From Sphagnum magellanicum (Eukaryota > Streptophyta > Sphagnopsida > Sphagnales > Sphagnaceae), in contig CM038919.1 of NCBI GenBank assembly GCA_021904315.1, positions 19,399,666 to 19,463,665 of the forward strand: DNA of 64,000 nt, read 5' to 3'. Below, in pieces: positions 1 through 64,000 of the stretch (positions are counted from its first letter, which is position 1; each line of letters begins with the position of its first letter). The notes under the pieces are model-generated. The model saw nothing but the letters and a program-made list of their open reading frames with translations. It did no database searches and was not told where the DNA came from. The translations under genes were made by a program, and so were the position numbers.

Positions 1-1578
1 AGGCCACAATCAAATCGGTGATGTCAAAAACGACTTGAATAAAATGACTAAGGTGGTTTGTTTTACTAGTGAATAATAGGGGTACGTTTTGGTCAAAATT
101 TTCAATTGGAAAAGTCATGATTTGTAGTAGTGATGGATGTAATGTTTTGCAACCATTGTTGTGAGTATCCACACTAACCAATCAATGCATCGACCTTGAA
201 GCCCTTTTGTCTCCAAGGACAATTAACATTTCAATGCCTCATGGTAAGATTCAATGGATGCCTGTGTGTTTTGGTTTGAATGCAACACTTGTAGAATTTG
301 CACCATCTACAACTCTATGGCAACATGGTTGCATGTACATAAAAAATAAAATGGTGGAGTGAAAATAAAGCCCACCACAATGCTCATAATTCTTGTGGAG
401 CATTATTAATGATGAAACATGCAGGTTTTCACCCAAGCATCTTCCTTTGAAGCTTTGCTTTCAAAGGACTTAACCACTCCACTAAATCATTGCATGTTTA
501 ATGACTTGTAATGATCCGTGTGACCAACATTTTGGTGTGTTGTGCATCAAACCCCATTAATGTGAACAAATGGAATTTCACATCATTGGTGCCAGATGTG
601 ACATCCATTGAGATTGCCCCATGATCACCTAATGAAACCATGGATTACAATTGTGTCGAAATTTGGATCCCTATTATGAATGGGACTTTAATTCCATTAA
701 TTTCACATGCATCTTGGAAATAAAACACATCATCTAGATGATTAAATGCCCATGTGTGCATGAAAGTGGCCAGGTTTGTATGTAAACATTAACTCCCTTT
801 CTTATGTTTGTGATCCTAGTACATAATGTCTTGTTGCCTAATGAAATCATCCTTCATCATGGTTCTTCCCATATTGATTTTATCCCACCATATTTCTTTA
901 TGCTTGTCATATATTTGTTTAACGATGTAATCTAACCCCAATAGAATCCAAATGTGGTCGTTGAGAGCTTGTGACATTCGCAGAAAAAAAAAATGATGGT
1001 CATGTAATGAAATCAAAGTCATGTTTGCCATGTGTGGGCTCCCCATTTTTTCCATTTGTGTGGTCAATCGTAGAAAATTATTTTTGCCACCTGAAGTTTT
1101 ATGTATAATTACTTAATTGAAAATTGAATTAAACAACTTTATTTAATGGATTGATTATTGCTTGGGTATCCACAGTTGTCTTCCAATCCATACTCACATG
1201 TATACCTACAAAATGTGCCATCAATTTCAATACTTAGGGTTGTGTACAATGACATTAAAAAATCAATTATATAACAAGAATGAATAATAAAACACCATAC
1301 CAAATGTGGCCAAGGTGGTTTTGGATTTTTAGCATCTTAATGTCCCCTTGTGGAGGTATTTGTTTATAAATGTTCCATTCCATTGTAAAATCTTCATGGC
1401 TATGTTCACCATCTAAAAACTTTGAAATTTGTGCATGTGGGATATATGCACAATTAACTTTGATTATATGTGGCCCTCCATGTCGAACGTCTTTTGTCCA
1501 CACTCAATTTATGTTATTGAATGGGGACCTTTCCAAGTTTTGGATTTCAATAGATTGAGATTTTGGAGCACAACCCAT
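1..1578 (-). pseudogene. Mutator-like (MULE) transposase relic, copy A
   Basis: Read on the minus strand, this is a decayed MULE-type transposase of the large plant family with a MULE DDE domain. A possible start ATG lies at 1,576-1,578. The N-terminal stretch at 1,267-1,503 includes AYIPHAQISKFLDGE and IPPQGDIKMLKIQNHL. The piece at 816-1,067 includes YDKHKEIWWDKINMGR. Around 540-640 comes the start of the catalytic core, GAISMDVTSGTNDVKFHLFTL, whose DVT aspartate fits the first DDE position. It continues as LVEWLSPLKAKL and a degraded INNAPQEL. Several stops and frame changes break it, and it runs off the window. The assignment rests on remembered family motifs. Confidence 0.72.
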
Positions 1579-3104
1579 GGTTGAAACTAAATGTGTGTGA
1601 CATGTAAGAAAAACATCAATTTGATGTAAATATGCAAAGACATGTACTTGTAATACCATCAACTACATATTAATTGAAATCATTAACTTGATTGTATATA
1701 CACAATTACTTTGGATGAAAGATCGTAAAACCTAAGTATAGGTTCAAGGTGATACAATTTAAAATTCAAATGGTAAAAAATAATGGCAAAAGTTGTGTAA
1801 CCCTTGCCTTCAAAGTTGAATTATCTTCATTATCCTCCGAAAGCCAAAAAAAAACTTGAATTCATTTTTTATGTGTATTGGAAAAAACCTTACATCCAAC
1901 TAAGATGTTCTAAACAATATAGGCCATGGATGCATAATTTTAATCTACAAAGTAAACAATTTCATTAAAATGCTTTAAAAACCATAATCTTAATTTTGAT
2001 GAGAAAGATTTGCATTCACCCTAAATAAAATGAACATGACAACCAATGGAACCTTAACCCTCATCTAAAACTAAAACAATTCTTACAAATGCCCAAAAGA
2101 ACCATAAACCTAATTTTGACAAGAAAAACTTGCATCCACTTTACAACTTAATCACTACATAACCATAAATCTAAAACTAAGCAACCATATGCAAAATGAA
2201 CCCTAAATTGTTGTGCTCAAACCACTTATGCAACAAAATTCTCTACAATGACCTTAATTTAAATTTTAAAAATGAATTTGTTGCATAAATTTAATGACAA
2301 AATTTAACAAGTTTTTACAACTAAATCTTATATGTAATTTTGGGTATTTTGGATTTGCAAAAACCCCTAAATTTAGTGAAGACTATAAGTATTCAATACA
2401 TGGTTGCAAAAGAGATAACAAACAATCTTATAAAAGTACTAAAAAAAATTATAACCTAAATCTAATTTGGGGGGGGGGAAGCCTAAACCATTAATAAAAT
2501 GTAAATAAAACAAATGGGAAAGTTTTCATCATTCATACCTTTGCCATGAAGCCAACTTGAGTCTCCTTTCCTCTAGTAGATGAAAGAGAACAAAATAATG
2601 GAAGCTCCTTCTATATATATGAACAAAATATAATTTGCTAGCAAAAAAGTTACCTTAAACCTTAAACCCAATGTCCCCCTTGTTTATTTGAAGCATATAA
2701 TATTAAATAGTTCATTTGTACTTTATGTTTTTAATGTAGATCACAAAAAATGAAAAGTGGGAAAAACATTCTTAATGGTTAAAAAACCATCAATGGATGA
2801 ACAATACCTACATATTTATTTACCAAAAGAATTATACTCACATTCAAAAATAATATTACTTTCTATATATATAGATATTGCAAATGCGTCATCTTCAGAG
2901 CGAGGAATTTATCGATGAAAGTAATTTAATATTAACATGTCTTGGGTTGAGAATTTAATATTGCATTTGACGGGTTTTGTGCTAAACCCTGAACATAATT
3001 TGAAACAAAATTTGAAGACTTTGCAATACCTGCATACTCAAATTGGCCATGTATCAATTCACCCTTTAAGGTTTAAATCATGTTAATAATGACCTTCAAT
3101 CTTC
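1579..3104. other. AT-rich stretch with no recognised gene
   Basis: No convincing gene. The part up to about 1,781 is shared with copy B. A two-copy degenerate tandem repeat of about 120 bp is visible (near 1,980 and 2,100, both containing AACCATAA and a variant of TTGCATTCACC). A run of nine G lies near 2,470. The last 200 bases before 3,105 are the presumed upstream region of the following ORF. They show no clear TATA box in the expected place. Confidence 0.5.
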
Positions 3105-4382
3105 ATGCGTGTGAAGTGTCAGATTGACATCTTGATGCGCTCCAGCAAGGATAGCTTGGAGACTTGGACTCTGGTGGAAGATTGTGTGCTGATTCCCATC
3201 AGAGAGTTTTGTGCATCACCCACAAAAGGATGTCAGGGTGTGGTGCTTGTGGAAGGCATTCTTCGACCCCAAGCTGTGAAGGAGCCATGGGTGTACAATG
3301 AGAGAAGGGAACAGTGTGTGGGGACTGAGATTCTCAAGCTCAAGGTGCTGGCAACAGGAAACATGGAATATGAACATGAATGGAAGAAACCTCTGTCAGG
3401 GTCTCTGCGAAGCTCCTCTGGCTCTGCCGCTGACAAGGCCCAAGATTTGATAGGAGAGGAAAATTGGGAGGATGTGTTGAATCGATGCCTGTACATTCTT
3501 GAGAAGCTTGATGATGAGTTGCAACTGGATGTTCCTGTCAGTGGGATGCAAAATGGTGGAACAGGACATCCTCTTCGAATACCTCGCACTGTTTCTCTTC
3601 TCGCACGTCCTCAGGAGATGGCAGGTCATCTCATCCGAACAAGGCTCTCCAACAGGGTTGGAGAGATTCAGAACCTGCAGCAAAAGCTCCTGCCGGGGCT
3701 CTCCAAGCACCTGGACAAGGTGATCCAGTTCCCACCTCTGCTGGAAGATCACATGATCCCTCGTCTTGTGTACTTGACAAGTGAGGGATCAGTGAAGGGT
3801 GGTGAGAGACTAGTCACCAGGCTACCAGTGGGTGCAACTTCAAGACAGATGCACCTCATGTGTGAGCACCACGATGAAATTCACAAGCTTGACAACCAGC
3901 TTGGGAGCACCATGAGGTTTGATGACAAGACACTGAAGAGTGTGCGACCACTTCTGGTATGGAGATTGCAGGTCATCACCATGTTGATGAAGATTGGTGA
4001 GCAAGCAGCTGGTGGATTTAGTAACATGGTGTCAGAGCTGGAGAGAGCCATGCTGATGGGAATTATTATTGCAGGAGCTCCAGAGCATCAAGATGGAAAG
4101 ACCGGTAGTGAAGCTGGTGCTGCAACAAAGATGGAGTTTTCAGCTAACCTACTGATGGACTTGACTTTGACAAAGGTGCCCATTACAGCTGATGAGAAGA
4201 CAGTAGCTGAGCAATGGCTGCTCCATTTCTTGAAGGGGAAGAACATCTCAACACTTTTTGGATTGTACAAGGTTGAGTATGTTGATGATGGCAAGACAAC
4301 CAAACATGTTGCATGGGTGTGCGAGAAGCACATGAACTATGGTTTGCGCCTTGGCACCATGCAACTGTTGCCTGTAGGATGA
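3105..4382 (+). CDS. Intronless 425-codon ORF, possibly C-terminal part of a ROCO/TORNADO1-like or NLR-like protein
   Basis: One uninterrupted ORF that is visibly richer in G and C than the DNA around it and shows normal plant coding character. The product is soluble, with no signal peptide or membrane segment. The first 100 residues include LVEDCVLIPIREFC and VLVEGILRPQ. Residues about 180-215 (IRTRLSNRVGEIQNLQQKLL) look helical. Residues 215-320 (HMIPRLVYLTSEG, then MHLMCEHHDEIHKLDNQLG) recall the C-terminal region of plant ROCO/TORNADO1-like proteins or conifer NLR-like relatives. That is from memory and is uncertain. If right, the leucine-rich and GTPase parts are missing, so this would be a 5'-truncated copy or a retrocopy. 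It lies in the block absent from copy B. Whether it is expressed is unknown. Confidence 0.45.
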   Translation: MRVKCQIDILMRSSKDSLETWTLVEDCVLIPIREFCASPTKGCQGVVLVEGILRPQAVKEPWVYNERREQCVGTEILKLKVLATGNMEYEHEWKKPLSGSLRSSSGSAADKAQDLIGEENWEDVLNRCLYILEKLDDELQLDVPVSGMQNGGTGHPLRIPRTVSLLARPQEMAGHLIRTRLSNRVGEIQNLQQKLLPGLSKHLDKVIQFPPLLEDHMIPRLVYLTSEGSVKGGERLVTRLPVGATSRQMHLMCEHHDEIHKLDNQLGSTMRFDDKTLKSVRPLLVWRLQVITMLMKIGEQAAGGFSNMVSELERAMLMGIIIAGAPEHQDGKTGSEAGAATKMEFSANLLMDLTLTKVPITADEKTVAEQWLLHFLKGKNISTLFGLYKVEYVDDGKTTKHVAWVCEKHMNYGLRLGTMQLLPVG

Positions 4383-4541
4383 TGATTATGAGCAAGAAGA
4401 CCAAAATGATGAAGAGGAACAATTACTACAACAACATCCTTGCAGCTTGGCACCATGCAGCAGTTGCCTGTAGGATGATGATGAGGAAGAAGAAGAAGAA
4501 GAAGAAGATCATGAGGATGATGATAGTCCTTCATGCTTTGA
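4350..4541 (+). repeat. 96-bp tandem duplication across the ORF stop
   Basis: A segment beginning CTTGGCACCATGCA at 4,350 recurs at 4,446, including GTTGCCTGTAGGATGATGAT. The unit period is 96 bp. The two units then diverge into GAA/GAT-rich simple sequence (about 4,480-4,530). The stop codon of the preceding ORF lies inside the first unit, so the duplication arose at its 3' end. Confidence 0.7.
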
Positions 4542-4766
4542 AAAGCTTCATTTTCTTTGAGGTGCGCAATTTGTGTTTTTATTTAGGTTGCATAATTCAT
4601 GTCATGTGTGATTGAAGCTAAGTTGCTGATTATTGCAAGCACAAGAGTTTTTTTTTCCACTGGGAGTGAAAATTACCTCCCAATCTTTAAGCTGTTTGTT
4701 GGATGACGTTGCTCCTGCTGCTGCCATCTATAGAGTTTTTTTCTCCCTCTTTCTCTTTGTTTGCAG

Positions 4767-4921
4767 CTATGGAAGTTTTTACATCAGCGATTTCCAGGGA
4801 TGTGGGTGGTGTTGGGGGTGGGATTGTGTATTCTCTGATAAATTCTTATCAGCACTTTGCTTATTTAGTAGGATTCAATCCTTTTGCAGAAAACAAAGAT
4901 GTTGAGAATATAAAGTTCTAG
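4767..4921 (+). other. Possible 5' exon after a strong splice acceptor
   Basis: A long pyrimidine tract ending in TTTGTTTGCAG (4,756-4,766) is followed at once by an ATG (4,769). An open stretch of about 50 codons with a hydrophobic start follows, MEVFTSAISRDVGGVGGG, ending at 4,921. It is reminiscent of the N-terminus of plant coiled-coil NLR proteins. No continuation was found downstream. It may be an exon fragment related to the ORF at 3,105, or chance. Confidence 0.2.
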
Positions 4922-6945
4922 TAGCCATACATAGATCAAATATCAATAACATTATTGCCATTCCAAAGCTCCAGGATTTGAGCATAATAATCTCTACATT
5001 GTCTTCTTAATTGATTCTTGTGCTATCTTATTTGATGTACCCTAGTGGACAAAAACTGTTGCATTCACGGTCATTGTGACACTCATGCTCAAAAGCCTCA
5101 TAGTGTGCTTGTATCATCATGCATTTGAATTTCCACCACCAAATCATGTGCACAATAATGTGTTTATCTTTAGAGTGATCTCGAGAGATTGGGAAAGATG
5201 GTTATAAATTGGTTGAATATTAAATTGGTTATAGACCTCCACCTTCTTTATTATTATTCTGACCTCCTTCTCATGCAAATGAAGGCAAAACATCTTAAGA
5301 TTAAAAATTTTAAATTAATGTAACTAATATAATACATTCCATAAAAAAAATTTAAAATTATTAAGTTGATAAACCTCCATCTCCTTTACCATTATTTTAC
5401 CACTTTTTGACATTTTCAAAGTGAAGCTTAAAATTTTGATTTAAAAAATAATTTAAATATTATGATACATTCCACAAATTTTTTTCCTTGGTCTTGGAGT
5501 TGTAGTAATTATTATGAATTTTTTTCTCATAGCAAAATACTACTTCATACGCATGTTCTCAAGTTTATGGAAGTTTTATTCCATAATTCAAGTCTTAAGG
5601 TTTTCCAAACAAAATGAGCATCGACTTTTTCAAATCTATAATAAAGGTGACAGCATATACCTATTCAATTATTGAACATTTTAAAAACAAGGGGGTTCAC
5701 TTTTTGCATCATAGTCATGATTTTCTTAAAATGTCTGTGACGACAAATAATATATAACATAACATTGATCAGGACTTGGTCTTAAATTAATAAGTTCAAT
5801 ATGAAGACATATATAATTTTTTTTTGATACAAGTACACCCATTCTCAATAATAAAGTTTTGAAGTTCAAAAACACGCATGGGTAATCTACCTAGAATTTT
5901 TTAAAATGAAATATTGGTATTGAATTTCACTAAAAATAATTTATAGTGATTAATTGTGTGAAATAACAAACTCAATGTATATGGAAAGCATTCCCTTAAA
6001 AACTTTAGCCAAAGTATGGACTTTTAATTAGTCAAATTGAACATTGTTTTCAAAAGTACATTTTTATTGTGATGTTTTTGTTTTTAAATTTTATCTTTTC
6101 TAAAAAGCATGTATATTTAGATCTTTAAGTGAGATCTTGTTCACATATGGACATTATTAATTCACTAAACATCAAATAATCCCCACTTAACAAACATGAT
6201 ACCATAATAGACTATTGGAAAAGGCTTCCTTCTAGGTTCCCAGTAAAGCTATGACAAAATGAGTAGAAATAAATAAAACATGAGCTCTATTTGGAGGAAT
6301 AAAAGTAAACAAATTTTCTAGCACTGTTACAATGCTATTGGCACAACTCTATAGCCACCATAGTAATCAACCTAAATTTGACTAAGGTAAATCAGGGACA
6401 AAAATTTAAAAAACCAAGGGCTTTACTTAGAATAGGCTACAATAACCTTATTGTTCATCCCTTGCAACTATCAATTTAACACTATGAAAATAAACATATA
6501 TGATCTGTTGTATCTACCAAGTGAATCATGGGCTATCTAGCATTTGACTATTGTATACACTGAGTAGTTCCTTTGGAACTATATTGAACTCTTCCCAAAG
6601 CTCCTATAACAAATTGGATCTAAAAGCATGTCCCATGCACAAATCTACAACCCTTTACATGAACAAACTAATTAATAGGTTTTCACTTAAATTAATAGCT
6701 CTAGAAACAAGAAGCAATCCATAAATCATTTGCCTAATTAATCACTTACATTTGAGGTTTGCCAGTCGAATTAAAAAACGCCTTGAAACTTGCATATAGT
6801 CAATTACTTCATTCCATCACATGTCCACAACAACAACATTGTGCCTTATCTAAAACACTTTTGAATAATCTTTATGTTGACATTGGAAATGTTTCTAACC
6901 TCAAAATTGCATAAGTATCAATTTCAAAGGTATGAACATGAACCA
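4922..6945. other. Gene-free AT-rich stretch
   Basis: No gene recognised. Short pieces near 5,230-5,450 loosely resemble sequence at 25,290-25,450, which lies beside the last exon of P450-A. They may be eroded 3' flank of a P450 copy, split from the exon relic at 7,092 by later insertion. Confidence 0.35.
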
Positions 6946-7091
6946 TTGAAATGAAATAGCACATTACAACATATAATGAATATAGGCAACATCAAAACTC
7001 AATGTAATCAACTCATACCTTATAGAACTCCCACAAATATTTCTAAGTAAATCAATAGTATTAACTATTTACCTTTTGGAAAACCTTTTGA

Positions 7092-7412
7092 TCATGTATC
7101 CTTACTAAATTTTTGATTAGTCTTTCTTATGGATTTCTTATGAAGCCCTTTCTGAAAGGTAGGAAATGGATTCATTATCATTTTTTCAAAAGGGTCAATC
7201 ATTGACCATTCACAATTCAGCACCAAATGGTGCAGGAATACAACCATTTTAGTGTGAGCAAACTCACTTCCAGGGCACATTCGAGGTCCACTTCCAAGTG
7301 GCAAATAAGTGAAAGGTTGGGGTCCTATTCCTTCAAAATGAGATGGATCAAACATTTCAAGACTTGGGAAAAATTGCAGTGACAAGTGTGAAACTGGACC
7401 ACTCCAAGCAAC
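7092..7412 (-). pseudogene. P450 last-exon relic (copy C)
   Basis: This minus-strand open stretch matches exon 6 of P450-A and P450-B. It keeps FDPSHFEGIGPQPFTYLP and PRMCPGSEFA with the heme-binding cysteine. The phenylalanine before the heme loop is leucine (LGSGPRMCPG), the PxRF arginine is histidine, and the C-terminus differs. At the acceptor it reads GCAAG where P450-A has GCAG. Homology continues into the intron to about 8,262 and stops, so exons 1-5 are missing. The flanking intron looks closer to P450-B than to P450-A. It is a dead remnant. Confidence 0.85.
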
Positions 7413-8262
7413 TTGCACAACATCCATGAATGGGGAAAGTTATTAATGCAATTAGGAAAGAAGAAATTCAATCCAACATTATGTTGATTTCTATTTGACA
7501 TTTAGATTAATGAAATTCAATTTGAAACGTCATAATATAAAAGTTCATAAAAAAATTTTAGTGTAGAGTCCAGACATTGTGTCCTATTTAGAATGTGGTT
7601 ATTGATCAAACATTTATGCACAGTCCAAGACCTTAAGAACTTTTGAAACTTTTAATCAAAATTATTTATAACATATTTTGCACCATTTTGTAAACCCTAC
7701 AATTGACAAAGAAACTAATTACAGCCTTTTAGAATGTGAAACATTTAACCTTTTGTATGCACTACTTCTTGAGCCTTGACCATTCTAAACATTATCTTCA
7801 TATCATTGGTTTGGACCAAAAGTGGCCTACAATATGTAAAGTTCACACAAGTATGTAAAATTGATTTGTAGCATTAATGTAAAGTTCAACATAAAACATA
7901 GTTTCCAATTGTGTTGTTAGGTTTAAAATGTGATTTGATATTTGGCTAGGTCAAAAATAAATTTTATGTGGTCAATTGGTATTTCTAAACTCACCCACAT
8001 GTGTTGGTTTGATGTGTAAATCATTGTTGGGCAATTACCTTGTTTGGGTGGGTACCACTAAAGGTTATAGTTTTAATTCATAAAAAGTGAATCAAAATTA
8101 GGTTTGATTTTTGGAACCGGTTTTAGATTCAAATGTTTTTAAAAAACATTTAAATTGAAAAACCAAACCAAAACCAAAATTCGAACCCTTATCTTTGAAA
8201 AAAAATTTAAATCAAGTGCTAATCGAAGGTTAATTATTATTCCCAATGCGGGTTCCTTACAA
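7413..8262 (-). other. Intron remnant of P450 copy C
   Basis: Non-coding sequence homologous to intron 5 of P450-A (25,941-27,142) and P450-B (about 60,122-60,965). Shared landmarks include CTTCTTGAGCCTTGACCAT and TTTGGACCAAAAGTGGCCT. Homology ends abruptly near 8,262, which marks the truncation point of this gene copy. Confidence 0.8.
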
Positions 8263-11200
8263 ATTTGACATTCCTTCATTCGAGTTTCAAGCTGCAAGCA
8301 TGAGTAGGTACAAAACAAGCTCCATCAAACAACATACAATTGGATTACTAGACCAAACATCAAAGTATGAATCTATCTTTATCAATAATGAGGAACCTCC
8401 CTACAAATTGTCTGCTTGAAAACATTCACAGAAAATTTAATTTCGGGGTGAAACACCATGTTAAAATGAGCACACACCCATTGGTTAGAACAATGAAATA
8501 AAATTTGGGTAGAGATAGAAACTTGTCAAAAGAACTTGAGAAAAAATGATGATGGACATGAACCTAAAAGTTACAGGAAGCAAGATTGAATTGAGTGGTT
8601 GACAGTTTGCTTACACTGTGTTTTGAAAATTTCTATGATAGACATACCCACGACAGAAGTACTCATATTCTTATAACAAAAAAAAGAGTAATCACCCTGG
8701 AAAGCTCAAAATCCACACCCCTGCACCTTCCCCCCCTCCCAACAGTCTTCCAAATTCTTGTAGCTATGTGTGTGTTTGTTCATCAAATACTTTGTGATGT
8801 GGGTACCAAGTATTTTGCCAATAATGGACATACTAAAGGGGGATGAACGTTTAAGCACCAAAGGAGAGGGTGGATCACTCAAAGAAAAAAAAGGGCCAAC
8901 TTTTAGGGGAAAACATTTACACAAGCCCCAAACAAAAGCAATGAAAATTGAGTTGTAGAAGAAAACTAAAACCAACAAAAGAGCTTTGAGAAAAGAGCAA
9001 AACGATTATGACACTTACCTACAACTTTGCTTCTATTGCTTTTGAAAACAAACAAACAAAATTTTCAAAACCGAAGAAATCCCATCTTCATTCTTTCCTA
9101 ACAAAAGCAATAAAAGATGGCCATGAAGGAGGAGGAGGCGGTCAAAGGGATCTCATCTGACAAACTTGAATTGTTGTCTTACGGTCTATGTAGGGCACAA
9201 CACTTGTGAGAAGTTCACTACCCACCATTTTAGTTGTGATAAAAACAGAATCACCAGGAGGAAAAAACACAGAAAAACAAACTTCTTCTCATTGCAATCT
9301 ACAAAACCTACAAATGAAAAAACCCAATTGTGAGATTTCAAAAGTTCAAAACTCAGGAGTGGCATAGATTCTGCAGACTTAGAAAATGTACCCTACCAAG
9401 ATGTTTACAAGTTTCACATCATGATGCACTATTATTTCCTTGTGAAGATACTATAATGCCTTTGCAAAATTTCCTCTAATAAACTCCAACAAAATCAGTA
9501 AAATCATGTCTGATTAAAGAGCTTGACATGGTGTTGGAACTCTCTTGATGAGCAATATAAGAAAATGGTGTCCTAGAAACAAATGTGTCACACACAAAAG
9601 TTTTTACAATAATCCTTTTTGTAGCGATCTGTAGAGACAAATGGAAATTTTAGGTTAGAAACACACCCAAGCTGTATAGCAACAATGGTCAGAATTTGTT
9701 GGAGAGTTGGTATAGTGTGCCTAATTTAGGAGCTTAACATGGCACTGAGAAACTCTTGATGAGGGTTATTAAAAATTGGTGGGTTTATTACAAACATGTT
9801 GAACACAGAAAAGCATAATGAGAATTCTTTCTATAGTAATATGATAATAGTTTCCTCTTGTTTCCCTCCATCACTGGTTTCTTCTCAACCTTGGTCTTCA
9901 CGGGCTTCTTTTCAATTGGATATTTCCTCCTTTCTGCTCTCCTTCAATTGCTTTGGATGCCATTGCCTCTGCTATATCTGATGTCCTACAAACTCAAATA
10001 GATGTAATTTGTAATTCTTTCTATGGAAGGTTTCAAAGCATATTTTTGAAAGGTTTTCCACATATTTTCACTAGACTCATATCCTCAAGTCAAATTTTGT
10101 AAGATTGCATTAAATACGATGGGATTATGTTTGAAATTAATTGCATGTTGATTAACATTGGATTTTTTTCTTTTCATTTCCACATTTAATATTAGTTTTT
10201 TTCAATTGTGTGCTCCTTGTTTCCATTCCAAGTGATTGGGTGTTACTTCTCCCATTCTTTGAAGAATCAGATAGTTGTTTTTATGGGTTAATTCTTGTAC
10301 CTTCCCTAGCAAGAGGTGTATAATCATCTATTGCTTTCAGGAAATACCATCTTTATATTGTTTCATTTTATGTATTCAAGGTCTTTCTTTTCAATTACAC
10401 TTTTTTATTTTTAAAACTTCACTTTTGAACAATGAAAATAATTATAATTTCTTTACATAAACAAAGGGCTCAAAATTAGTGATGGATGAATATCATGTTT
10501 TTTAAATATCAATTCAGATAAATGAAAAGTTACAAGGGAATTTTGCAACAGTAACTACAGCAAATACTTTTGCAGTAGGTGCTGCAATAGCAACTACAAC
10601 CAAAGCTACACAAAAAAAATCACACAAACTCCTCAAAAAGCAACTCCTTGACGGGTTTTCTATTCTACGAACATTTTGTGGAACAATTCATTAAATAAAT
10701 ATTTTTTATATAAGTTAACCATTTAACATATATAAAATATTTTATTTTTATTTTGTTAATTTTGTATTAAATTGATAGTTGAAACATTTATCTAATTCCT
10801 ACCCAATGAGATAGTAACAAAACTTATATTTTAAAAAATTATCCGTCTTACAACTTTGATAAATGGAAGATATCACACTTGGGGAAAAACAATAGACAAT
10901 GAAATATTCATTATGAGAATGCTCAACAAATCATGGAAAAGAATAATAGGTAACACAATTGAATGGTCAGCATTCTACCTAACAAATATAAAACATCAAA
11001 AATATCAATGGAATAAAATAACATATAGTGAAATTTGCACAATTTTATCTTTTGAAAAAAAATTCAAATAGTAAATCTAGTGAACATTCAAAATTCAAAA
11101 TTCAACCTAATATATTATTCAAGAAAATATTTATTACAATAAAATTATCATCTCCACAAAATCATTTAGTCATTGTCATTGGTTGTGTGAAGTAATGTGG

Positions 11201-11357
11201 AACCCAAGTGCATTTTGTATGGAATCCCATGATCTTGGAGGAAGAAATCAAATAGGTATGAGGAATTTGATTTTGAATGATTCAATATCATGGTGAAACC
11301 ATCTACATATTTCTCTATTGTAGCAAGAATGTTGATCATAATTTAATCCGTTGGATA
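8263..11357. other. Stretch with no recognised gene
   Basis: Part of the block absent from copy B. A degenerate two-copy repeat about 210 bp apart is visible (near 9,520 and 9,730, sharing AGCTT.ACATGG and CTCTTGATGAG). A segment near 11,211-11,275 (GCATTTTGTATGGAAT, then GATCTTGGAGGA) recurs at 32,885-32,950. Short ORFs here have no coding character. Confidence 0.4.
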
Positions 11358-12410
11358 CGATGGTTAAAGACACCAAGAGATACATAGAAGACATTGTGAA
11401 CATTAGTGTCAAATATATTTCATATTTTTATTTTATTTTTGAACTAGGATTCATTGATAATCATGGTAAAGAGGACATTGGGAAATGTTGTAAAAGTTAA
11501 AAACAAGTCTTTAGAAATAACAAAGGCATAAAAAAAACATCATGGATATTAAAACTATTAATGTTTTAGGAGGTGAAAATTAAACTAAATCTCATACTCT
11601 AGAATTTAGTAAATGTGAAAATGATTTCATGGAAAATTCATATGGTCATGAATTAACAATGTTTAATAACTATTTTTTTAAATAATAATATTTTTTTGGG
11701 AAATACGTAGTTTTTTTTTTGGTTTTTTGAAGAGGGTGCGAAAGGGGGTGTTTTATGAAGCTCAGGAATGGCGGGGTAGAACTTCCATTGTCTATGGCAA
11801 GAATGTAGGTGTTTACATGGTGGAGAACAAAAACAAATTATAAGGAGAAAGAGAAACATAAATGAGGTGGAGTGCATTTGGTTTTGAGATTTTATGGGAA
11901 TTTGGATTTTCATCAACAACAACAACAACCCTATCATCAAAAGAACTTTCTCCATAAACCCTAATTTTGGTGTTTTTCTTTCATGGCTTCTTCACCTTGG
12001 TTGATAATACATATGCCCTAAGGTGGGTTATAAATGTTCTATCTCTAGGACAATTCAATAGAATGTTTTTTAACAAGTTTTTTAACAAGAAATGATTTGC
12101 AATGCAAACATTTTGCAAGTTTTGCATGTGCAACATGATGAAGATTATTCATACATCTCTTGTGACATTCCATGTTTGTTGATACATCTGACCAAAATGA
12201 TGTTGATTTTGGATTTATTTATGCATGTGGCAGAGGAAACCTTGCTGGTGGCAAATGCCAGGAGTGCTTGTGGATGTGATCTAAACATGCATGCAAGCTC
12301 ATTTGAATCATTTTAGTATCACTGTTCTAAACATTGAAGAAAATTGAGTAGGTTTCTCATTTTGCCCCATTTCATCTACATTTTGCATTTTCATTTTTGG
12401 AGACTTTTAA
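11358..12410. other. Shared repeat sequence left of the CACTA element
   Basis: Matches about 40,836-42,291 of copy B, which has an extra block of about 400 bp at 41,160-41,575. A plus-strand open stretch at 12,092-12,316 is conserved in B (41,973-42,218) with a few substitutions. I do not recognise the peptide. It may be a relic of an older element. Confidence 0.4.
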
Positions 12411-12683
12411 CACTATGCCAAAACATGGTTTTCATGACTATGACAACTTGTGAGTACTCTCCAAGTATAGTCATGTCGTCATATTTGAACTTCAATCATT
12501 GTCATTATTTTGATTACAATCATTATTAAGAGTACATGACTATATATGACTATAGGTAATTATATGACTATAAATTACAACTACACATTTAATAATCATG
12601 TTGAATATAATTGACATTGTTTGACCAACTATAAAAAATTTAAATAAATATGAAAATGTAACTAAGTTTAATAAAAATTGACC

Positions 12684-14475: not shown

Positions 14476-14539
14476 AATCTAAGCTAGAAAAAATTATTCT
14501 TTATATTTTTGTGATACCTTCATTTGTTACATAAAAAAT

Positions 14540-14640
14540 GTGGTGGCTTGATGGCAAAGGACTTTGCCCCTCAAAGTGGAGGTGAGGTGTTCAAGTCCTC
14601 TTGCCTTCATCCTATTGCATTGCTTCCTAGGTTCTTAGGG
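14540..14640 (+). repeat. tRNA-derived SINE-like head, copy A
   Basis: TGGCTTGATGGCAAAGG near 14,544 resembles a Pol III A box and GTGTTCAAGTCC at 14,587-14,598 a B box, about 43 bp apart. The right-hand side does not fold as a mature tRNA. It is read as the head of an old SINE within the CACTA element. Confidence 0.45.
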
Positions 14641-14691
14641 AAGTAGTAATGCAGTAGCCTTCCTAGGAGGAGGGTTAAGTGGTTAGCACAT

Positions 14692-14717
14692 AACCTAGGT
14701 TTTTAAAAACCTAGGTT
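14692..14717. repeat. 26-bp perfect palindrome
   Basis: Half-site AACCTAGGTTTTT followed directly by its complement, centred at 14,704/14,705. The corresponding B sequence (about 45,100) is imperfect. It sits in CCTAGG-rich sequence at the right of the CACTA interior. Confidence 0.8.
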
Positions 14718-15155
14718 AGGTCGCCTAGTGTAGAGTGCCTACCATAGGGCTCCTAGCCTAGTAGGTGGCCTAGGCTAGGTCCCAAGTGTCATTATTTCAC
14801 TAAAAGTTGATTGCCACATGGCATCATATAATTAGGTAGGAAAAATAATTTCATTATTCTAAATTGCCACATATCCACTCATAAATGGTTAATAAATTTT
14901 TGAATTCATTTTAGGCTATCACGTGGTAGCAAGACATTAATCAAAATAAATTATAATTAAATTTTGGCCATTGAAAATATCATGCAATCATGGAAGATAT
15001 AGTCGCAAATGGCATTTATGACTATGCCATTTTTTGCGACTAGTGATAAATACCACAAGGCCATATGACTAGCAGTCATGGCCAATCATATATGTAGTTT
15101 AGGATTAGATTGTCAGTCACTTCTATAGTCATATTTTCCATGTTTTGGCATAGTG

Positions 15156-44941: not shown

Positions 44942-45042
44942 ATTGTGGTGGTGTGATGGCAAAGGGCTTTGCCCCTTGAAGTGGAGATGAGGGGTTCAAG
45001 TCCTCTTACCTTCATCCTATTGCATTGCTTCCTTGGTTCCTA
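44942..45042 (+). repeat. tRNA-derived SINE-like head, copy B
   Basis: Counterpart of 14,540-14,640. The B box GGGTTCAAGTCC is closer to the Pol III consensus than in copy A. The A-box region reads TGGTGTGATGGCAAAGG. No intact tRNA is present. Confidence 0.45.
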
Positions 45043-54160: not shown

Positions 54161-55088
54161 AGCATCCTCATGTCTCCCCAACCTTTTTCCCTCATGTGCC
54201 CTAGCATCCCCACAATTTCCCAACATAAAATTGGCATTTGTGGTGTTTTTTGCCATTTTGTAGCATTGTTGTTGTCCTTCACCATGGCATGACACCTCCT
54301 ACTAGTTTCCCATTCCTTATCCAGCATTGCCAAACCTCTATAATGCATCCCCACATTCTTCCTACTACTACCAAGCCAAGGGATTGCAAGCCTAAGCCAC
54401 AAATTGTGATGTGTTGGCAAATGTTAGGTTGCTTAAGCAGTTGGGCAACCTCTTGAAGCTCTTTGGCTTGGTGCCAACATGGATATAAAAGGGACCACTT
54501 TGTTTTTCACATGCCCATTTTAATGAATTAAAAACAATTCTTTCATTGGCTAGTATGCTTGTAATCTCGAACAATAATTTCACAAATGTGCATAAAGTTG
54601 TGTCATAATTTTGTTTGTATTATTATTTGCTTTAAATGTTACTCCTTAGATCTTTGGCTTTTCCCTTGAAAGCTAATGCAATTGATTTTTGAACCCATTA
54701 CCACATGGCATGAACAAATTGAAAAGCTCAACCAAACTTTAAAAATTAAGCCTAAACTAGAATTTAAAACCCATGGCTACATCGAATGTAAGTGGGAGCT
54801 TGAATGGGAGTGGGGTCCCATGAAGTCTAAACCCAAACCAATCCTTTTAATCTTATCATTTGGGTTCCCAATGACCACAATCCATGATATTTTTGCAACT
54901 TATTGTTTATATATCCATGATATTTCAAAGTTAAGATGCCTTTGAAGAACCTAATATTCAACTCATTGTTAGGAAAATGAATTATTGTCCAATAATTATA
55001 CATCGTTGAATTATTTTTTACGTCAACCATTACTAAATTTGAAACAAAAAAAAAAATTGTAAAATAATATTAGTTGGAGGGTAGTTAC
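54161..55088. other. Gene-free shared stretch, copy B
   Basis: Counterpart of about 23,340-24,226. Contains the conserved TATAAAA at 54,484-54,490. No gene recognised. Confidence 0.4.
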
Positions 55089-55244
55089 TTTTGTTCATCT
55101 CTTAATTTGGCAACAATGATGTCATGCCCAACTTTTTTTTTCAAGGATAATGGCAATGGGTTTTACACTAGCTTGTTCTCATTTGAAAACAAAAATGTGT
55201 TCCCTTCCCCCTCCTAGAGAAGATAAAAGATGCAACTTGAACAC
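55089..55244 (-). pseudogene. Orphan P450 exon-2 relic, copy B
   Basis: Counterpart of 24,227-24,382, again 156 nt with the same landmarks. Its presence at the same place in both duplicons shows the older gene had already decayed to this fragment before the duplication. Confidence 0.8.
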
Positions 55245-56477
55245 CAACCAAACCAAGTTGAGAACTTTCATTACATGATCACCGAGCTTGTCGATGCACA
55301 TACAAATTCACATTGTAATCCTCATACCATGCACATTTGACTTACTTATGATTCAACTCACATGCATTTGAGAAAAATGTATGTATGAATTGCACTTAAT
55401 GTTGAAAGTTCGAAAGAACCACCAAAGCATAACAAGGCCAATTTTACATGAATTGTGCAACTATTCATTGCGTTGAATCAACCATATTTGGAAACGGTAC
55501 ATGTAGGATTCATTATTGCTTACACAAAAAATTGAACAAAAGTTCATGTATGACAATGGTCCACAACACTTACAATCTTAAATCTTGAATTCCACAAAAC
55601 CTTTTTTATAAATAAATAAAATTTCCCTTTTCCATAGATTATTCTTGCCACTTGTGAGGAGTGTTTTGAATCAACATTTTGTTTCCAAGCAAAATTTTGC
55701 GAGAAAGGGAATTAAAAAATTCAAAACTGAAGTGATTTTGGAGGTGGTCAATATGAAGAAATGAGAAAAAAAATTGTAAAAATATATAGATTGAATTTCG
55801 TGTGTGACCATGAGTATAGAAAGCCATTTTAAGAAATTTGCCACAAACTCAATTTGTAGCCAAATTTGGCTAAACCTTCTTAGGGATGATTGTCATTTTC
55901 TTTACATCTTCCTATGGATGATTACCATTTAGGTTACATTAAAAAATTCCAAAGAAAACATTGGTTGTGATTCTAGAGTTAATAAGAGTAACAAATTGTT
56001 ACCATGAATTTCATTGATTTATTTCCATGAATTTGTGTAATTCATTTTCCAATTTAATATATATATTTTTAGATTTATCCATAGCCTATGGCTTCAAGCC
56101 ATTCACCACATAATTATTATCATCATGTATGTATACACCATCTACTAAAATAACTACCTCACCCATCTCTCCTACCCACCTATATGAAAAAGCAAAATCT
56201 TTATAACTATTTTAAAAAGAAACTTTCATAATTTTCACCTTGATCCTTAACGATTATTTTGACCTCTTCCTCACATACCTTTTGAAATCTTCCCTTTCAA
56301 AGTGAAATTTAAAAATTGAATTCAAATGAAATAACACATTACAACATATAATGAATATGGGCAACATCAAAACTCAATATAATCAACTCATAACTTATAG
56401 ATTCCCACAAATATTCTAGGCAAATCAAGAGTATTAGTTGTTATGTCTACGTTTTGGAAAAGTTTTTTATCATGTAT
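55245..56477. other. 3' flank of P450-B, left of the LTR-type insertion
   Basis: Counterpart of 24,383-25,625. Non-coding. It is the original downstream flank of the P450, now separated from it by the insertion. Confidence 0.6.
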
Positions 56478-59400
56478 TGTTATGCATTCTTACACACCCT
56501 TAACATGAAGATATGCATTCACAAACCCGCTTGGAAGTGAAACTATTATGTAGTTGTAGTGTAACAAGTACGGTGGTTCAATGTAATGCAATGAAATTCA
56601 CTAAGAGTCTAATGCGTTGTGTCCAACATCTACACATAACATCCTAATCTAGCATGCATTGGATTTTTGAAAAGCTAATCTAAAGGAATCGTGTTACAAA
56701 ATCTCATAAGTTTTTTTTTTTTAAATTTTTTTGATCAAGAGTTAAGCTTTGAACTAGAAACCACTTTGCTTAGATTGAAGGAAAAAACAGACAATTCAAC
56801 CCCCTCTACTTCCAACACGTGTAGCTCCCTTTACAGTAACTCCGATGATGCTGAAATTTGAGGAGAACCTTCTACACCTCTCAAACTAAGACTGATTTAA
56901 ATTTGACACATCCAATGATGGATTTGGGAGGAACAATTAATTGAAATAAAAATCCAAAGGCTTTGTCATGGAAGTCCTTCCATGAACTCCACTATAACAC
57001 CCTCTACTTCCAACCATGTAGCTACCTGACAGTAACTCCGATGATGCTGAAATTTGGGGGGAACCTTCTACACCTTCCAAACTAAAACTGATTTCATTTT
57101 GACACAAATCCAACGGTGGATTTGGGAGGAACAACCAATTGAACCAAAATTCCAGAGGCTTTGCTACAAGTACTTGTTACACACAACTTCCTTCCATGTT
57201 TGATTCTTGCACACACCTTTTCCATGAACACCTCTCCACACATAAGGACCAAAAATTCTTCCTCACACTTCCTCCTCCTCTTTCTTTCTTTTCCACATAC
57301 CCACAATACCTTCTCCTTTGGTAAGCCTCCATGACCTTCCTTGAGCTTGTTTCTCTTGTTCAATGAAAGCTTTGAAATCCTTTGCTCCAATCAATGGCCT
57401 CCTCATGCTTTTAAAGCCAATGATAATTGAGAATAAATTGCCATCCAATTGAGTTTAAGATGAGAATTCTTAGGCCCAATGAGACCCAAGAAATATTCCA
57501 TCCTCTAATCAAATAGGATGATAATCCTCATGACTAATGAGATTGAAGGATTCATCCCTTCCCTTATCTTGGATATCTTGATGAGGTCTCTTGAGCTTGA
57601 TTGACGCGCTCCCAAGTCACGGGGTGAAACCCACTTGAGGGTTTCCCAAAATCAAGTTGCGGAAATTGTGACTTAGCGGCGCGCTCCCGGCTTCCATTTC
57701 TAAAAAGGGGTAGAGGGTTGAGTTGGGAGCCCAGGGATTAGACTAGGAAGATGGACTAGTACATCAAGCACGAATCTGCATCCAAAAACCAACCACAAAA
57801 GGTTAGTTTAGCATTCGGAACACCCTGGGGTGTTGGGACTTGCCACGGGCACTTGGACACACAAGACTCACCACAGTCCGGACTCGAGAGTAAGCCACCA
57901 CCTTACTCCCTATAGTATTCTCTGCGGCTAGTCGTCGAGGCTACATCCAAATGGCACATTTTGTTGGGACTCCCGAAATGGAGTCCCGAAATTGTCCCAG
58001 CTGGACTCCCGGGACTTTGAATAGCCATAACTCCTCGCCCTGAACTCGGATCGGGACGAGTCCTAAATCAAAGTTGTAGTTCTCGTCGAGAGCTTTCCAA
58101 CGCCGTGTCGCACTCTTCAAGGCGACGTCGGGAAGAGGTCGATTCCCGACTTTTAGTGGTCGGGAGTCAAACTACCAGTTTGACTCCCGGCCCTTCTTTT
58201 GCCCATAACTTGGGCTGCAGATGTCCGAATGGCCAATGCGAGGCCATTTTCGATATCTACGTTTCAAGACCTTTCCAATGACACTAAGAACACCTCAATG
58301 CGAATTGTTTTGGGCCTTGCTGTTAATCTCTGAACATTCGGGAGTTGCGGAGGACTCCAAATCTCCAACTTTTCCAAGTGTTGGGCTTCACCCCCACACT
58401 TGGCCAAAGTGGGGTTGCGACATTGATCCTTATCCTTTCCGTCCATTGACCTTCACATCCTACTTCTTCATCCTAATTACTTCAAATAACTAACTACTAG
58501 GATAGTTTATCAGTAGTAACAAGTAACGTCCTTGAATTCTTACTTGACTAATTCAATGGTTGAACTAACATCCCCGTGTACCATTTACTCTTTTGATATC
58601 CCGTACCTATTTATTTTACCATGCACTAGTTAACTATGTAGTACATAATAAAATTTGCACCACAAAAAACCCCACATATTTCTAGATCCACCGTCAAAAT
58701 TAGGGTTTGATGAATCCATTAGATCTAGGATGTTCGAGTTTTCATGAGGTTCCGCCGTCACTCCCACACGTTATGCCTACCTTAATTTGTTAAATAAAAA
58801 GGCCTCGACCTCTTCTGAACGCAAGTACCACATTGTTTGTACTACCTTCTTAGTTTTTGTTGATGCAAGTGAGAACTAGTCGTGGCGGATGATGTCGCTA
58901 CGCCTTCGAATCCTCCAGTTGCACCAGTAGAACAGGAAGAGCTTGGAGAAGCACCGCTCGACGTGATTGTTTTTCAACGGTCGTGTGAAGAAGAACCGCC
59001 CAGGCGAGTGGTGCGCAATCAAGTCGATTGTTTGGCATGGGATCGTCGATTGTCTCCTAACCCACATGCTTTAGCAATCTATTTAGAATTCGTTCCTACT
59101 TGTGGAGTCGTGCCAGAAAGGTTTGAAGAATGTCAATGCGAAGATGATGATGTCCGTTTCCATTGTCAAACGTGGGTTCCCGGTGATGGCCACTATCGTT
59201 GGCTATGAGGGCCAATCAACCCCCTTCCCATGGAGCACCAAGCTAAGTACCATTCGTCGCATTTTAGATTTTTTGCAATTGTGATCTATCCTTTAAGTCG
59301 GTTATAAAGTTGTAATTCACCTGAGGCTACTCATGCGAAAATGTTAATACTTAAGTTTGATTTTATTTTATTTAAAAGTCTGATAGAAGTGAAACTAAAT

Positions 59401-59802
59401 AAAGATGTATTAGGACTACATCCTAAAAATCTTACAAGTACATCATTAGTGCTTGAAGATTCTTCTACATACTAACTTAACCTTGTCATGGCAAAATGCT
59501 ATTGTTAATTATGGGCTTGTATTCCCTATATATCAATAATTCACATTTAATTTTACATCCCCTTTCCCTTCTCTACAACATAAAAGGGATAATGTACTTT
59601 AAAAGGTTTACTAGGTGCTTAACTAATTAAGCGTTACATCAATTGAAATAAAGAAGTACTATATGCCTAGAAATATCACAAAAGCTGATTCAACTATTAA
59701 TAATCACTACTTGGAGGCTTATAAGCATTCAAATCATTAGTACTAGGGAAAATTACGGAATTAAAGCTTAACTAATTATTGAGCTATAATCCATGGCTCA
59801 CA
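56478..59802. mobile_element. LTR-type insertion, probably a solo LTR or non-autonomous element
   Basis: Copy A lacks this 3.3 kb. It begins TGTTATGC and ends CTCACA (TG...CA ends). TGTAT flanks both sides (56,473-56,477 and 59,803-59,807); the match can be stretched to CATGTAT, which makes the exact end ambiguous by two bases. No gag-pol domains or internal second LTR were seen. The region 57,600-58,460 is GC-richer than anything nearby. It is a fossil, younger than the segmental duplication because only copy B has it. Confidence 0.65.
56799..57165. repeat. Direct repeat of about 170 bp inside the LTR-type element
   Basis: Sequence at about 56,799-56,966 recurs at about 56,989-57,165, sharing CAGTAACTCCGATGATGCTG and TGGATTTGGGAGGAACAA, with moderate divergence between the two units. 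Confidence 0.8.
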
Positions 59803-59819
59803 TGTATCCTTATTGAACT

Positions 59820-62800
59820 TTTGATTAATCTTTCTTATGGATTCTCAATTAAAGCCCTTTCTGAAAGGTAGGAAATGGATCCATTGTCATTTTTTCAAAA
59901 GGGTCAATCATTGACCATTCATAATTCAACACCAAATGGTGTAGGAATATAACCATTTCAGTACGAGCAAATTCACTTCCATGGCACATTCGAGGTCCAC
60001 CTCCAAATGGCAAATAAATGAAAGGTTAAGGTCCTATTCCTTCAAAACGAGATGGATCAAACCTTTTAGGATTTGGGAAAAATTGTGGTGACAAGTGCAA
60101 ACATGGACCACTCCAAACAACTTGCACAACATCCATGAATGCGAAAGGTTATTAATGCAATTAGTAAAGAAGAAACTCAATCCAACATTATGTTGATTTC
60201 TATTTAACATTTGGATTAATGATAATTCATTTTGAAATGTCATAATATAAAAGTTCATAAAAAATCTTTAGTGTAGAGTCCAGACATTATGTTCTATCTA
60301 GAATGTGGTTATTGATCAAACAATTATGCACAGTCCAAGACCTTAAAAAATTTTAATCAAAATTATTTGTAACATATTTTGTACGATTTTGTGAACCTTA
60401 CAATTGACGAAAAAACTAATTACAACCTTTTAGAATGTGAAACATTTAACCCTTTGTATGCACTACTTCTTGAGCCTTGACCATTTTAAACATCATCTTC
60501 ATGTCATTGGTTTGGACCAAAATTGGCTTACAATATTTAAGTTCACACATGTATATAAAATTGGTTTGTAGCATTAATGTAATTTTCAACATAAAACATA
60601 GTTTCCAATTGTGTTGTTAGGTTTGAAATGTGATTTGATATTTGGCTAGGTCAAAAATAAATTTTATCTGGTCAATTGGTATTTCTAAACTCGTCGACAT
60701 GTGTTAGTTGGATGTGTAAATCATCATTGGGTGGTTACCTTGTTTGGGGGTTACCACTAAAGGTTCTCGTTTTAATTCATAAAAAGTGAATCAAAATTAG
60801 GTTTGATTTTTGAACCGATTTTAAAGTCAATTTTTTTAAAAAATTTAAATTGAAAAACCAAACCAAAACCAAAATTGGAACCCATATCTTTGAAAAAAAA
60901 ATTGAAAAAAAATTAAATCAAGCATTAATCGGAAGTTAACTATTATTTCTAGTTCGGGTTCCTTACAATTTGATCGAGTTTTCAAAACGAGAACCCAAAT
61001 TATAACTAATTTTCTTTTGTTTGAAAAATCAAAGCCAAAACTAGAACCAAAATCACAATTTTTGTTTTAAAGAATTGAAACCAAAACTATTCTAATTTAT
61101 TTTTAAAAACTAAAAATAAAGGTCTTTCATAAAAGTCAAGAATCAGCCAACACTTATATTAACTTCGAATAATTGTCTTATGGATTGGTAGTAGATTTAC
61201 ACAAGTATGCCTATGATAATATGCAAATTTTGTAGTTTTATGAACTTGTTAACTAAATTAAGCTTAACGTATTTTGTGGTCCATCATTTCAAGAAACATA
61301 ACATATAAAAATGTTTTCTACAACTCTTACCTTCCAACCTTTTGGAATGGTAAATCCTCCATATTCAATCTCTTTAAGCGTTTCTCGTGGTGCAAATGCC
61401 ACTATAGGTTGTATGCGCATAGTCTCTTGGATCACTTGCCACGTGTATTTCATTTTTCGTGTATCATCCCAACATAGCAAGTCTCCAACCTTTTCCACTG
61501 CAATTTTCTTTTGCTCTATCACATGCACAAATGTAAACCTTCAATTTCAATTAAATCAAATTAGTTGGCAGAGAGAAAAGGATAAATTTGTGTTAAAATG
61601 GCGTAGAATGCCAATATATGTAAAATGTGATTCCATCCAAATATTTCATTTTCTCAAGACCTTTTCACCAAATTTATAAACTAAACATATAATCTAGGGA
61701 ACATACTTTTAATAACCTCTTGTAAACAATGCGGATTTAAAAATAGATATTTGAGTACGACTCCAAGTGTGCTAGATGTTGTGTCATGGCCTCCAAATAA
61801 AAGCACCAAAATGTTGTCTTTGATTTCGTCGTCGGTGACTAGGTGGCCTTGATCATCAGGGGTGCTAATTTGAATTGACAAAAGATCCTGGCGAGGTGAG
61901 ATCTTTCCTTCTTCCATATCTTGCCATTGAAAACAATAATAAAAGTATGTACCTAAGTGAAACCTATCAAGTGTACATTGTACATGGGAGGAACCACCAC
62001 AACATGGCATCGCAACTATACTACCCAATTTGAAATTACTCAAGGCAACCAATTATGAAAGTAATCAAAAACTTTGGAAATAAGTTTAAATTGATGCAAG
62101 ACAACAAAAAGATTTGCAATATGGAATCAATTGCCTTTCGCTTCTGACGTATGGTTATGTCTAGTGTATGAAGCATTTTTTCATGTGCTAACCTAGCTTT
62201 GTGGTATGTAGTTCCAAGAAAATCCAATGGTAATGCAAAAAACCCTGCCAAGTATGTATTCATATCATGTGCTAATGCATGAGATTTAGGGCCTTCTTTG
62301 ATGCTCATGAATAAATCAATTGCCAAAGATAAAATAATTTTTTTCAATAACGTTCGAACTGTAATTTCATCTTTCTTTTCCCATAATTGCTCAAAATGGG
62401 CTCTTATTGTTTCATGCATTCTAGGCACAAAGCTTTGCAAGCCAACAGGGTTGAAGAAAGACGAGAGAATTTGGCAACCCTTCCTAAACATTCAAAACCA
62501 CAATGTATTAGTCATGCCCATTCCCAATTATCATAGTCCATTGTACTTCCATGATTAACACAACACAAAAATCACTTTAAAAAAAAATGAATGCATGTTC
62601 AAGATTTATATGGTTGAAGGATTTGTAAATGGATATATTGATGGCAAGGTAGGTACTTGTGTTGTTCTCCTCTTTTCATAACAATGTTGTCACGCCTAAG
62701 AAGTTTGTGCATAGATGATGGCCATGAGGCTTGCACTAGCTTGTTTTCATTTGAAAACAAAAACCTGTTGCCTTCAGGTGGACCTAGAAACACTTGTGGA

Positions 62801-63752
62801 GAAAATAAAATATGTGTCTTGAACACCTAAACCAATTTGAAACTTTAATCATATAATCACCTTGTCAATATGTAGATGAATTCCAATTTAAAATTAATAT
62901 GCATTTCACTTGCATATGCTTAACATTGTATACACTAAAGAAAGATGTATGCAATACACATTTAATGATGAAATGAACATCTTTGGTAAATTTATATTCA
63001 ATCATGTCACAACTAGAAATAGTGTTCAAGGATTACATTTGATCTCTATCTTCACATCCTCAAAATACCTTTTCATTTTCAAGTATTAAAATGATTTGTA
63101 GCTTGTCAAAATAACAATCCATAACATAGACATGTATTGCCAAGAAAACAATCCAATTCAAAATTCAAACTCCAAAGAACATGCACATTCCATATGAATG
63201 TTAGACATGTGACTTTAAGGATAAAGAAGCACCTTGAAATAACCTAAGATGCATTTCCATGCAAAAGATTCAATTAACACATCATGCAATGCAAGTTTGA
63301 TATTATTGTAAATATATGTTCCTTAAAGTTTAAAATGTAAAGTAACATCATGATTGGGTTAAACAGACCATCACTGTTTAACTGTACTTCATAGAAAGCA
63401 CTTTTGCAAAGTTGCATAGGATAAATAGATAACAAACCTGTCCATATTTGGCGGTACGAGGGTTCATAAAGTCCTCCATAAATTTATTGGCTTTATAAGC
63501 GCGAAGAAACTCCAAGGTCTCTCCTAAAAAAGGGAGCCCAAGACTACCAAGAGGTAGAGTTGTTTTGGCACTGTCCTTCAAGTTTCTTTGCCAAGAGTAC
63601 AACCTATACAAAGTAATGACTCCTATTACAATTCCAACAGCCAAGCCCACATCAGCAAATGCTGAAGAAAGACATAAAAAATCAGTGATTTTGCAATCAT
63701 AGTATGCCCGATGACCCATTTCTAACTTGTGCTCGTACCCTTTCCCGATCAT
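59820..63752 (-). pseudogene. Cytochrome P450-B, decayed duplicate of P450-A
   Basis: Same six-exon layout on the minus strand: 63,438-63,752, 62,657-62,826, 62,135-62,483, 61,707-61,920, 61,331-61,515 and about 59,820-60,121. Exons 1-5 keep the P450 motifs (membrane anchor, LPLGSLGLPFLGE, GGHDTT, ETMR) and the same lengths. Intron 3 has a GC donor (62,133-62,134) and its acceptor AG has moved by one base. The intron 5 acceptor is GCAAG where A has GCAG. In exon 6 a TAA (60,026-60,028) precedes the heme loop, which itself reads [14 protein letters not shown], and another TAA replaces CAA near the C-terminus. Even if spliced, the product would lack the heme-binding end. It was once a full gene and is probably dead now. 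Confidence 0.85.
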
Positions 63753-63797
63753 TGGACTAGAAACTTATTTGCAACACGGTGGTAAACCTACAATATC

Positions 63798-63806
63798 CAT
63801 ATATAG
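63798..63806 (-). promoter_or_regulatory. TATA-like box of P450-B
   Basis: TATATATGG on the minus strand, at the position matching the TATA box of P450-A (29,571-29,578). It may still support transcription of the pseudogene. Confidence 0.5.
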
Positions 63807-64000
63807 ACCATCGGAACTATGAATAGGAGTTGTTCGAATTCAGGTGTGTGCAATCAATGAAATCTGTACAATGAAACGATGCCAAATTTATCTATAGGAT
63901 AATGTTGTACGTGCACACTTGAACAAAAGATGTAACAAAGAGTCAAGACTATGTCTTGTAAATGACATTCCTCAACTATGGAAGGGGGTGCCTCGTGAGG

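Follow-up and report, generated by a model that had tools for sequence, protein, structure and literature searches.

The 64,000-nucleotide stretch of the moss Sphagnum magellanicum analysed here, called the window (contig CM038919.1, here C13, positions 19399666-19463665), lies within a tandem array of P450 genes, and it most probably (we put this at roughly three chances in four) is part of a 126-kb piece of such an array that was copied from another contig, C9, into a repeat on C13 termed Q. Within this history, we infer the direction from C9 to C13, the single event and break repair as its mechanism. An earlier note on the window had described two colinear copies with a P450 gene, here copy A (unit 2, U2) and copy B (unit 3, U3), as one direct tandem segmental duplication of 25-30 kb. 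The copies are indeed adjacent, colinear and in direct orientation (self-alignment diagonal of 11360-29761 versus 40836-63994) and do carry a P450 gene each. The duplication is thus real, yet it is of more than one age, and a single local event is contradicted by the rejection of a U2+U3 clade: copies A and B are not each other's closest relatives, neither in the gene nor in its 3' flank. The earlier note therefore recognized a real feature and ordered some of the events correctly, but was wrong about the single local duplication. For the analysis, 100 kb were added on each side of the window (264 kb in total; local coordinates are window coordinates plus 100,000), and the genome searched comprised 439 Mb in 31 contigs.

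The presumed insert measures 126,191 bp, from local 69,023 to 195,213 (C13:19368688 to 19494878), and its counterpart is C9:1,595,015-1,726,548. On the left, the match between C13 and C9 starts at local 69,023 and C9 position 1,726,548 and goes inward with 96.8% identity over 349 bases, and C9 and U2 both continue leftward as array sequence. At the right end, the match extends up to 1,595,015 (97% over 1,213 bases, 93.5% within the final 401 columns of the alignment), and the contigs diverge at one base, where C13 enters Q and C9 continues; the C9 array extends beyond both end points. Q itself, to the left of U1, occurs on C13 only among the matches listed (40 of 3866 candidates scored), besides two short dispersed repeats. 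Its interrupted copy, Q2, has a left part that ends at local 69,016 and a right part that starts at 195,214, and in one paralogous copy, Q3, the left and right parts meet at 229,641/229,645 (with 94% and 82-90% identity, respectively), so that Q3 represents an empty site. Between the end points, the two contigs have a partial unit and three P450 genes each, the types being A, A and B on C13 and A, M and B on C9. After the B-type gene, the unit tail breaks off on both contigs at a point equivalent to ~31.4-31.9 kb, and some 5.2 kb further on the sequence is taken up again at 9,297. A colinear source with sharp ends is thereby seen at both ends, with the interior followed mostly through match coordinates; the C9 letters compared were those of six P450 loci, seven further stretches and two end pieces. 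It is because of the sharp ends, the empty site, the matching gene set and the presence of both P450 lineages on both contigs that copying from C9 is favoured. A possible target duplication reads TGACAT on the left and AGACAT on the right, with TGACAC in Q3, and is too short to be sure. As inspection by eye revealed no inverted repeats in the block-end sequences, a terminal-repeat transposon that carried the block was rejected.

The array would have grown by tandem duplication before the copying. A stretch of about 126 kb would then have been copied from C9:1,595,015-1,726,548 and inserted into Q2 on C13, probably when a long DNA segment was captured in the repair of a chromosome break. The units would have been mixed by unequal crossing-over or gene conversion, and the array would later have undergone deletions, insertions of elements and disabling changes.

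The kinship of the units is among the grounds for this reading. The P450 gene tree consists of two clades, each with 100/100 support: A/M, with U1, U2, C9_1706, C9_1746, C16, C3, C9_1662 and C9_1558, and B, with U3, C9_1620, C18, C9_1783 and C11 (C9 units are named by their position in kb, single copies by their contig). U3 groups with C9_1620 and C18 (100/100), and U2 with U1 and two other C9 units; the tree tests do not separate U2 from C9_1706 as the nearer relative of U1. In the tree of the 3' flank, U3 likewise pairs with C9_1620 (100/100). When U2 and U3 are forced into one clade, the log-likelihood (lnL) drops by 997 for the P450 gene (p-AU, i.e. approximately unbiased test, 5e-55) and by 125 for the 3' flank (p-AU 2e-31). 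Over most parts of the rest of U3, unit 1620 of C9 is 92-95% alike, among the matches listed and without U3 itself and U2, and U2 and U3 are 89% identical over 14400-23280. The single P450 copies on other contigs each group with a C9 unit (C16 with C9_1746, C3 with C9_1662, C11 with C9_1783, C18 with C9_1620 and U3, all 100/100), which suggests that the C9 array is a hub for them. More tentatively, and with less confidence than in the copying as such, a piece of more than 120 kb may have been copied whole, lacking terminal repeats and flanked by a duplicated target of ~5-7 bases, from a C9 hub that also seeded the singles on C16, C3, C11 and C18. The solo C16 copy (window 23370-31862) shows no terminal features in ~140 bases at either end.

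At least four array units were found in the 264-kb stretch of C13 (Table 1), and as the array continues beyond both window edges, its outer boundary is absent from the window. U1 and U2 are 95.7% identical in one 15-kb alignment. The phase of the copies differs from that of the earlier note, as the first 1,779 bases are the tail of the upstream unit and not the start of copy A. The copies had moreover been thought to agree base for base, and a single diagonal of uniform divergence had been expected of one event, patchy divergence of several. The dot plot and the divergence along the copies gave the patchy result: in steps of 500 bases, identity is 95-98% for 1-1779, 94-97% for 11360-12927, 89-93% for 14300-23284, 93-95% for 23337-25626 and 81-91% for 25620-29761, so that divergence is stepped, being ~4% or 8% depending on the block and 13% in the P450 gene.

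One step lies near the last P450 exon. U2-U3 divergence is 6.7% before and 14.4% after window 26,039 (2-unit interval 25,996-26,047; log-likelihood ratio, logLR, 36.3), compared with a maximum logLR of 7.3 in 200 shuffles, a control run for the U2-U3 pair only. Among eight A/M-versus-B pairs, the step falls at 26,039-26,042 in five and at 25,916-25,917 in three, and the four pairs within clades have none (logLR 2.2-3.5); its exact position is uncertain, because exon 6 is constrained and intron 5 holds a very divergent patch. The intergenic flank is 6-7% diverged, compared with 9-16% in the five introns of U2 and C9_1620. Furthermore, the B-type genes have two different 3' flanks, namely that of A units in U3, C9_1620 and C18, and all or part of the sequence 3104-6940 (the B2 flank) in C9_1783 and C11. 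Due to these two observations, the U3-type units look like recombinants. In window 25,437-25,736, C9_1746 and C16 are 96-97% alike to C9_1783, to which U2 is 90% alike, and they have the C-terminal residues of C9_1783 in common, so a second exchange at the end of C9_1746 and C16 is likely from these alignments. Among the later events would be an exchange of sequence by the units close to the final P450 exon. Further late changes in U3 are the loss of the equivalent of 1780-11359, the gain of a 3.3-kb element and the breaking of the gene, with disabling changes also in some other genes.

Which other histories could have produced this arrangement? The adjacency of the copies, their common orientation and the CACTA-like element at a common site would suit an origin of copy B from copy A in which a segment of 25-30 kb was tandemly duplicated once in direct orientation, but as both gene and flank reject the U2+U3 clade, as divergence between the copies is stepped, and as the C9 relatives of each copy are closer to it than the copies are to each other, this origin is highly improbable. 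We regard it as equally improbable that the second copy or the entire C13 array is an assembly artefact: long and similar arrays are hard to assemble, but the copies are 2-13% diverged and have indels and insertions of their own, there is no N in the 264 kb, and the likely source genome is, according to PMC9946827, a PacBio assembly of a haploid genotype. A somewhat better, though still unlikely, possibility is that one unit arrived on C13, was duplicated there locally, and was kept similar by later C9-C13 exchange between the chromosomes. This would agree with the ~97% likeness of U1 and U2 and with the unseparated order with C9_1706, but types A and B occupy matching positions on both contigs and the block ends match C9 on both sides, for which the arrival of a single unit would need several independent exchanges. 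Finally, the arrays on C9 and C13 could both be ancestral, for instance from a genome duplication, with the array at Q3 lost by a clean deletion. There is just one empty-site paralogue, and old genome duplications in Sphagnum are described in PMC9946827, but the C13 array begins mid-unit and ends within sequence that continues in C9, and an identity of 93-98% seems too high for an old duplication; we thus hold common ancestry to be quite unlikely.

The copying of the array stretch from C9 also has to face several observations that weigh against it. Its empty site has Q3 as the sole comparator, at the identities given above, and the candidate target duplication TGACAT/AGACAT is short. Unit 2 is of type A and matches a C9 unit of type M, the flank of U4 is closest to C9_1662, and the identity between C13 and C9 varies from ~93 to 98%, with C9 compared mostly through match coordinates. 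Within U3, window 45,073-48,976 is equally near to unit 1662 (94%) and to unit 1620 of C9 among the matches listed, and the initial 1.7 kb are closest to U1, U2 and unit 1662 (94-95%; U3-U2 94.6%). In view of the type mismatch, the U4 flank, the range of identities and the one comparator, the copying from C9 therefore needs either a later exchange of units or a different state of the source.

The processes considered here are known ones; the case is a clean one, and its interesting part is the sharp-ended 126-kb block. Tandem arrays such as the P450 and NLR clusters of plants, which evolve through birth, death and unit exchange, likewise contain tandem units, open and broken copies, mosaics and copies on other chromosomes, but here a 126-kb array piece, sharp-ended and with an empty site, seemingly moved between chromosomes. 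Searches of open-licence literature yielded no paper about this array. A segment of this size is far longer than expected for a duplication by break repair. Break-repair duplication with captured DNA (PMC2671141) resembles our case in its sharp ends without terminal repeats and in a possible short target duplication, but differs from it in that the source of the block lies on another contig. If the stretch was copied whole, a gene array was dispersed to a new chromosomal site in one step. Together with the empty site, the block offers a testable moss example of gene-array copying between chromosomes. The array also exemplifies how unit exchange produces mosaic P450 loci, and how array neighbours can mislead, as adjacent copies are less related mutually than to copies on another chromosome.

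Table 1. Units and sequence features of the P450 array on C13 (window coordinates, unless marked as local)
Feature	Position	Strand	Remark
U1	local 69.0-101.8 kb
U2 (copy A)	local 109.9-140.8 kb
U3 (copy B)	local 140.8-165.6 kb
U4	local, from ~171 kb
Tail of U1, the unit upstream of copy A	1-1779	+	matches 39029-40836 in self-alignment
First part of unit 2, equivalent deleted in unit 3	1780-11359	+	junction at 40836; carried by C9:1730308-1737303 and C9:1724368-1728965
Orphan last exon and part of intron 5 of P450	6945-8268	-	intron part nearer to B-type genes
CACTA-like element with AT-rich tandem array, copy A	12411-15155		13/13 terminal bases; flanks TAA/TGA
3' flank of P450 gene (segment S2), copy A	23337-25626	+
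P450 gene of unit 2 (copy A), open	25641-29492	-	six predicted exons (exon model)
Exons of copy A P450	29492-29211, 28624-28455, 28283-27935, 27719-27506, 27327-27143, 25940-25641	-	last acceptor uncertain
Tail of unit 2	39029-40836	+	matches 1-1779
Most of unit 3 (copy B)	40836-64000	+	self-alignment
CACTA-like element, copy B	42292-45549		13/13 terminal bases; 3-base target duplication TGA
3' flank of P450 gene (segment S2), copy B	54207-56477	+
3.3-kb element inserted in copy B	56478-59800		between CATGTAT repeats; absent from C9_1620
P450 pseudogene of unit 3 (copy B)	59801-63719	-	two AA acceptors and two in-frame stops under copy A model

The P450 gene of copy A has no stop before its C-terminus in the six-exon model, in which the acceptor of exon 6 is uncertain because the chosen start makes the protein a few residues shorter than the usual pattern. 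PF00067 (Pfam) was matched by three of five open reading frames (ORFs) from copy A exons. In Pfam scans of two ORF sets, which have the ORF 36344-37000 in common, five of ten ORFs in the first were matched, each time by P450, and none of ten in the second; no transposase domain was found in the window ORFs scanned. The predicted protein carries motifs that we take to be the heme, I-helix and K-helix motifs of P450 enzymes, and its best solved-structure matches (residues 51-495) are taxadiene 5-alpha hydroxylase and CYP90B1, enzymes of the CYP85 clan. These enzymes likewise have the three motifs, with the start of exon 6 being a prediction in copy A. Judged from the best solved matches, copy A is a predicted open, CYP85-clan-like P450 gene, and copy B, under the same exon model, is a predicted pseudogene.

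With a P450 probe (40 of 128 candidates scored), at least 13 full or nearly full P450 loci were found on six contigs: three on C13, six on C9 (at 1558, 1620, 1662, 1706, 1746 and 1783 kb) and one each on C16, C3, C11 and C18. Fragments and more distant paralogues exist as well, many of them on C2 among the matches listed, where a second cluster of P450 paralogues at C2:3.61-3.98 Mb is ~66-80% identical to the window gene, exon by exon. Under the copy A model, nine of the 13 copies, copy A among them, are open with GT/GC-AG introns. The four broken ones are copy B, U1 (three stops), C3 (one AA acceptor and two stops) and C9_1706 (one AA acceptor only). The donor after exon 3, in the region 28455-27934 of the window, is GC in all five B-type copies and GT in all eight others. 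For 21 of the 78 pairs, among them pairs with broken copies, the ratio of nonsynonymous to synonymous substitution rates (dN/dS, Nei-Gojobori) was calculated and lies at 0.30-0.80. In the 3' flank, 24205-24547 is 66-70% identical to the exon 2 region 28433-28771 and is perhaps a gene relic.

The junction of the 9.6-kb deletion in U3 has at most one or two bases of shared sequence. An insertion of these 9.6 kb into copy A was rejected, as C9 units carry the equivalent sequence, and the orphan P450 exon is hence absent from copy B because it was deleted there and not because it was gained in copy A. From its part of intron 5 and the adjoining B2 flank 3104-6940, we read this exon as the probable stump of a B-type gene. 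Its capture by a transposon was set aside, since the same flank also adjoins the B-type genes C9_1783 and C11. That the orphan exon is old, as claimed earlier, is borne out by related C9 units that hold the exon or its flanks.

Both positions of the CACTA-like element show CACTA ends, and the 3-base target duplication is TGA in copy B, where copy A has the flanks TAA/TGA; no transposase was found. As U2 and U3 carry the element at one common site, it is older than their split; the placement of CACTA elements before the duplication thus stands for this one element, and the tandem array inside it has changed in length since then, as the earlier note had it. The 3.3-kb insertion in copy B had been regarded as of LTR (long terminal repeat) type and as younger than the duplication. 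It is young, as C9_1620 lacks it, but no LTR was found at 56478-59800, where the end regions share only 10-12-base matches. A relative of this insertion sits inverted in U4.

Several minor features were noted in addition. A second CACTA-like pair of ends (12/13 bases, target duplication ATG) bounds 37110-39159, and 38089-38400 is a tandem repeat of a 71-base unit containing ACCCTAAC, with 4.4 copies at 94% match. A repeat of ~970 bases at 31886-32856, with no inverted repeat at its ends, has many genomic copies at 90-93%, a likeness that points to a fairly young element. Another dispersed repeat, at 17040-18838, has copies on many contigs at 80-87% and is perhaps the MULE (Mutator-like element) of the earlier note. 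An open frame of 429 amino acids on the plus strand at 3093-4382 has no Pfam match. To the right of the C18 P450 (C18:17204300-17204900), pieces like window 10894-11125 and 29824-30190 adjoin in scrambled order.

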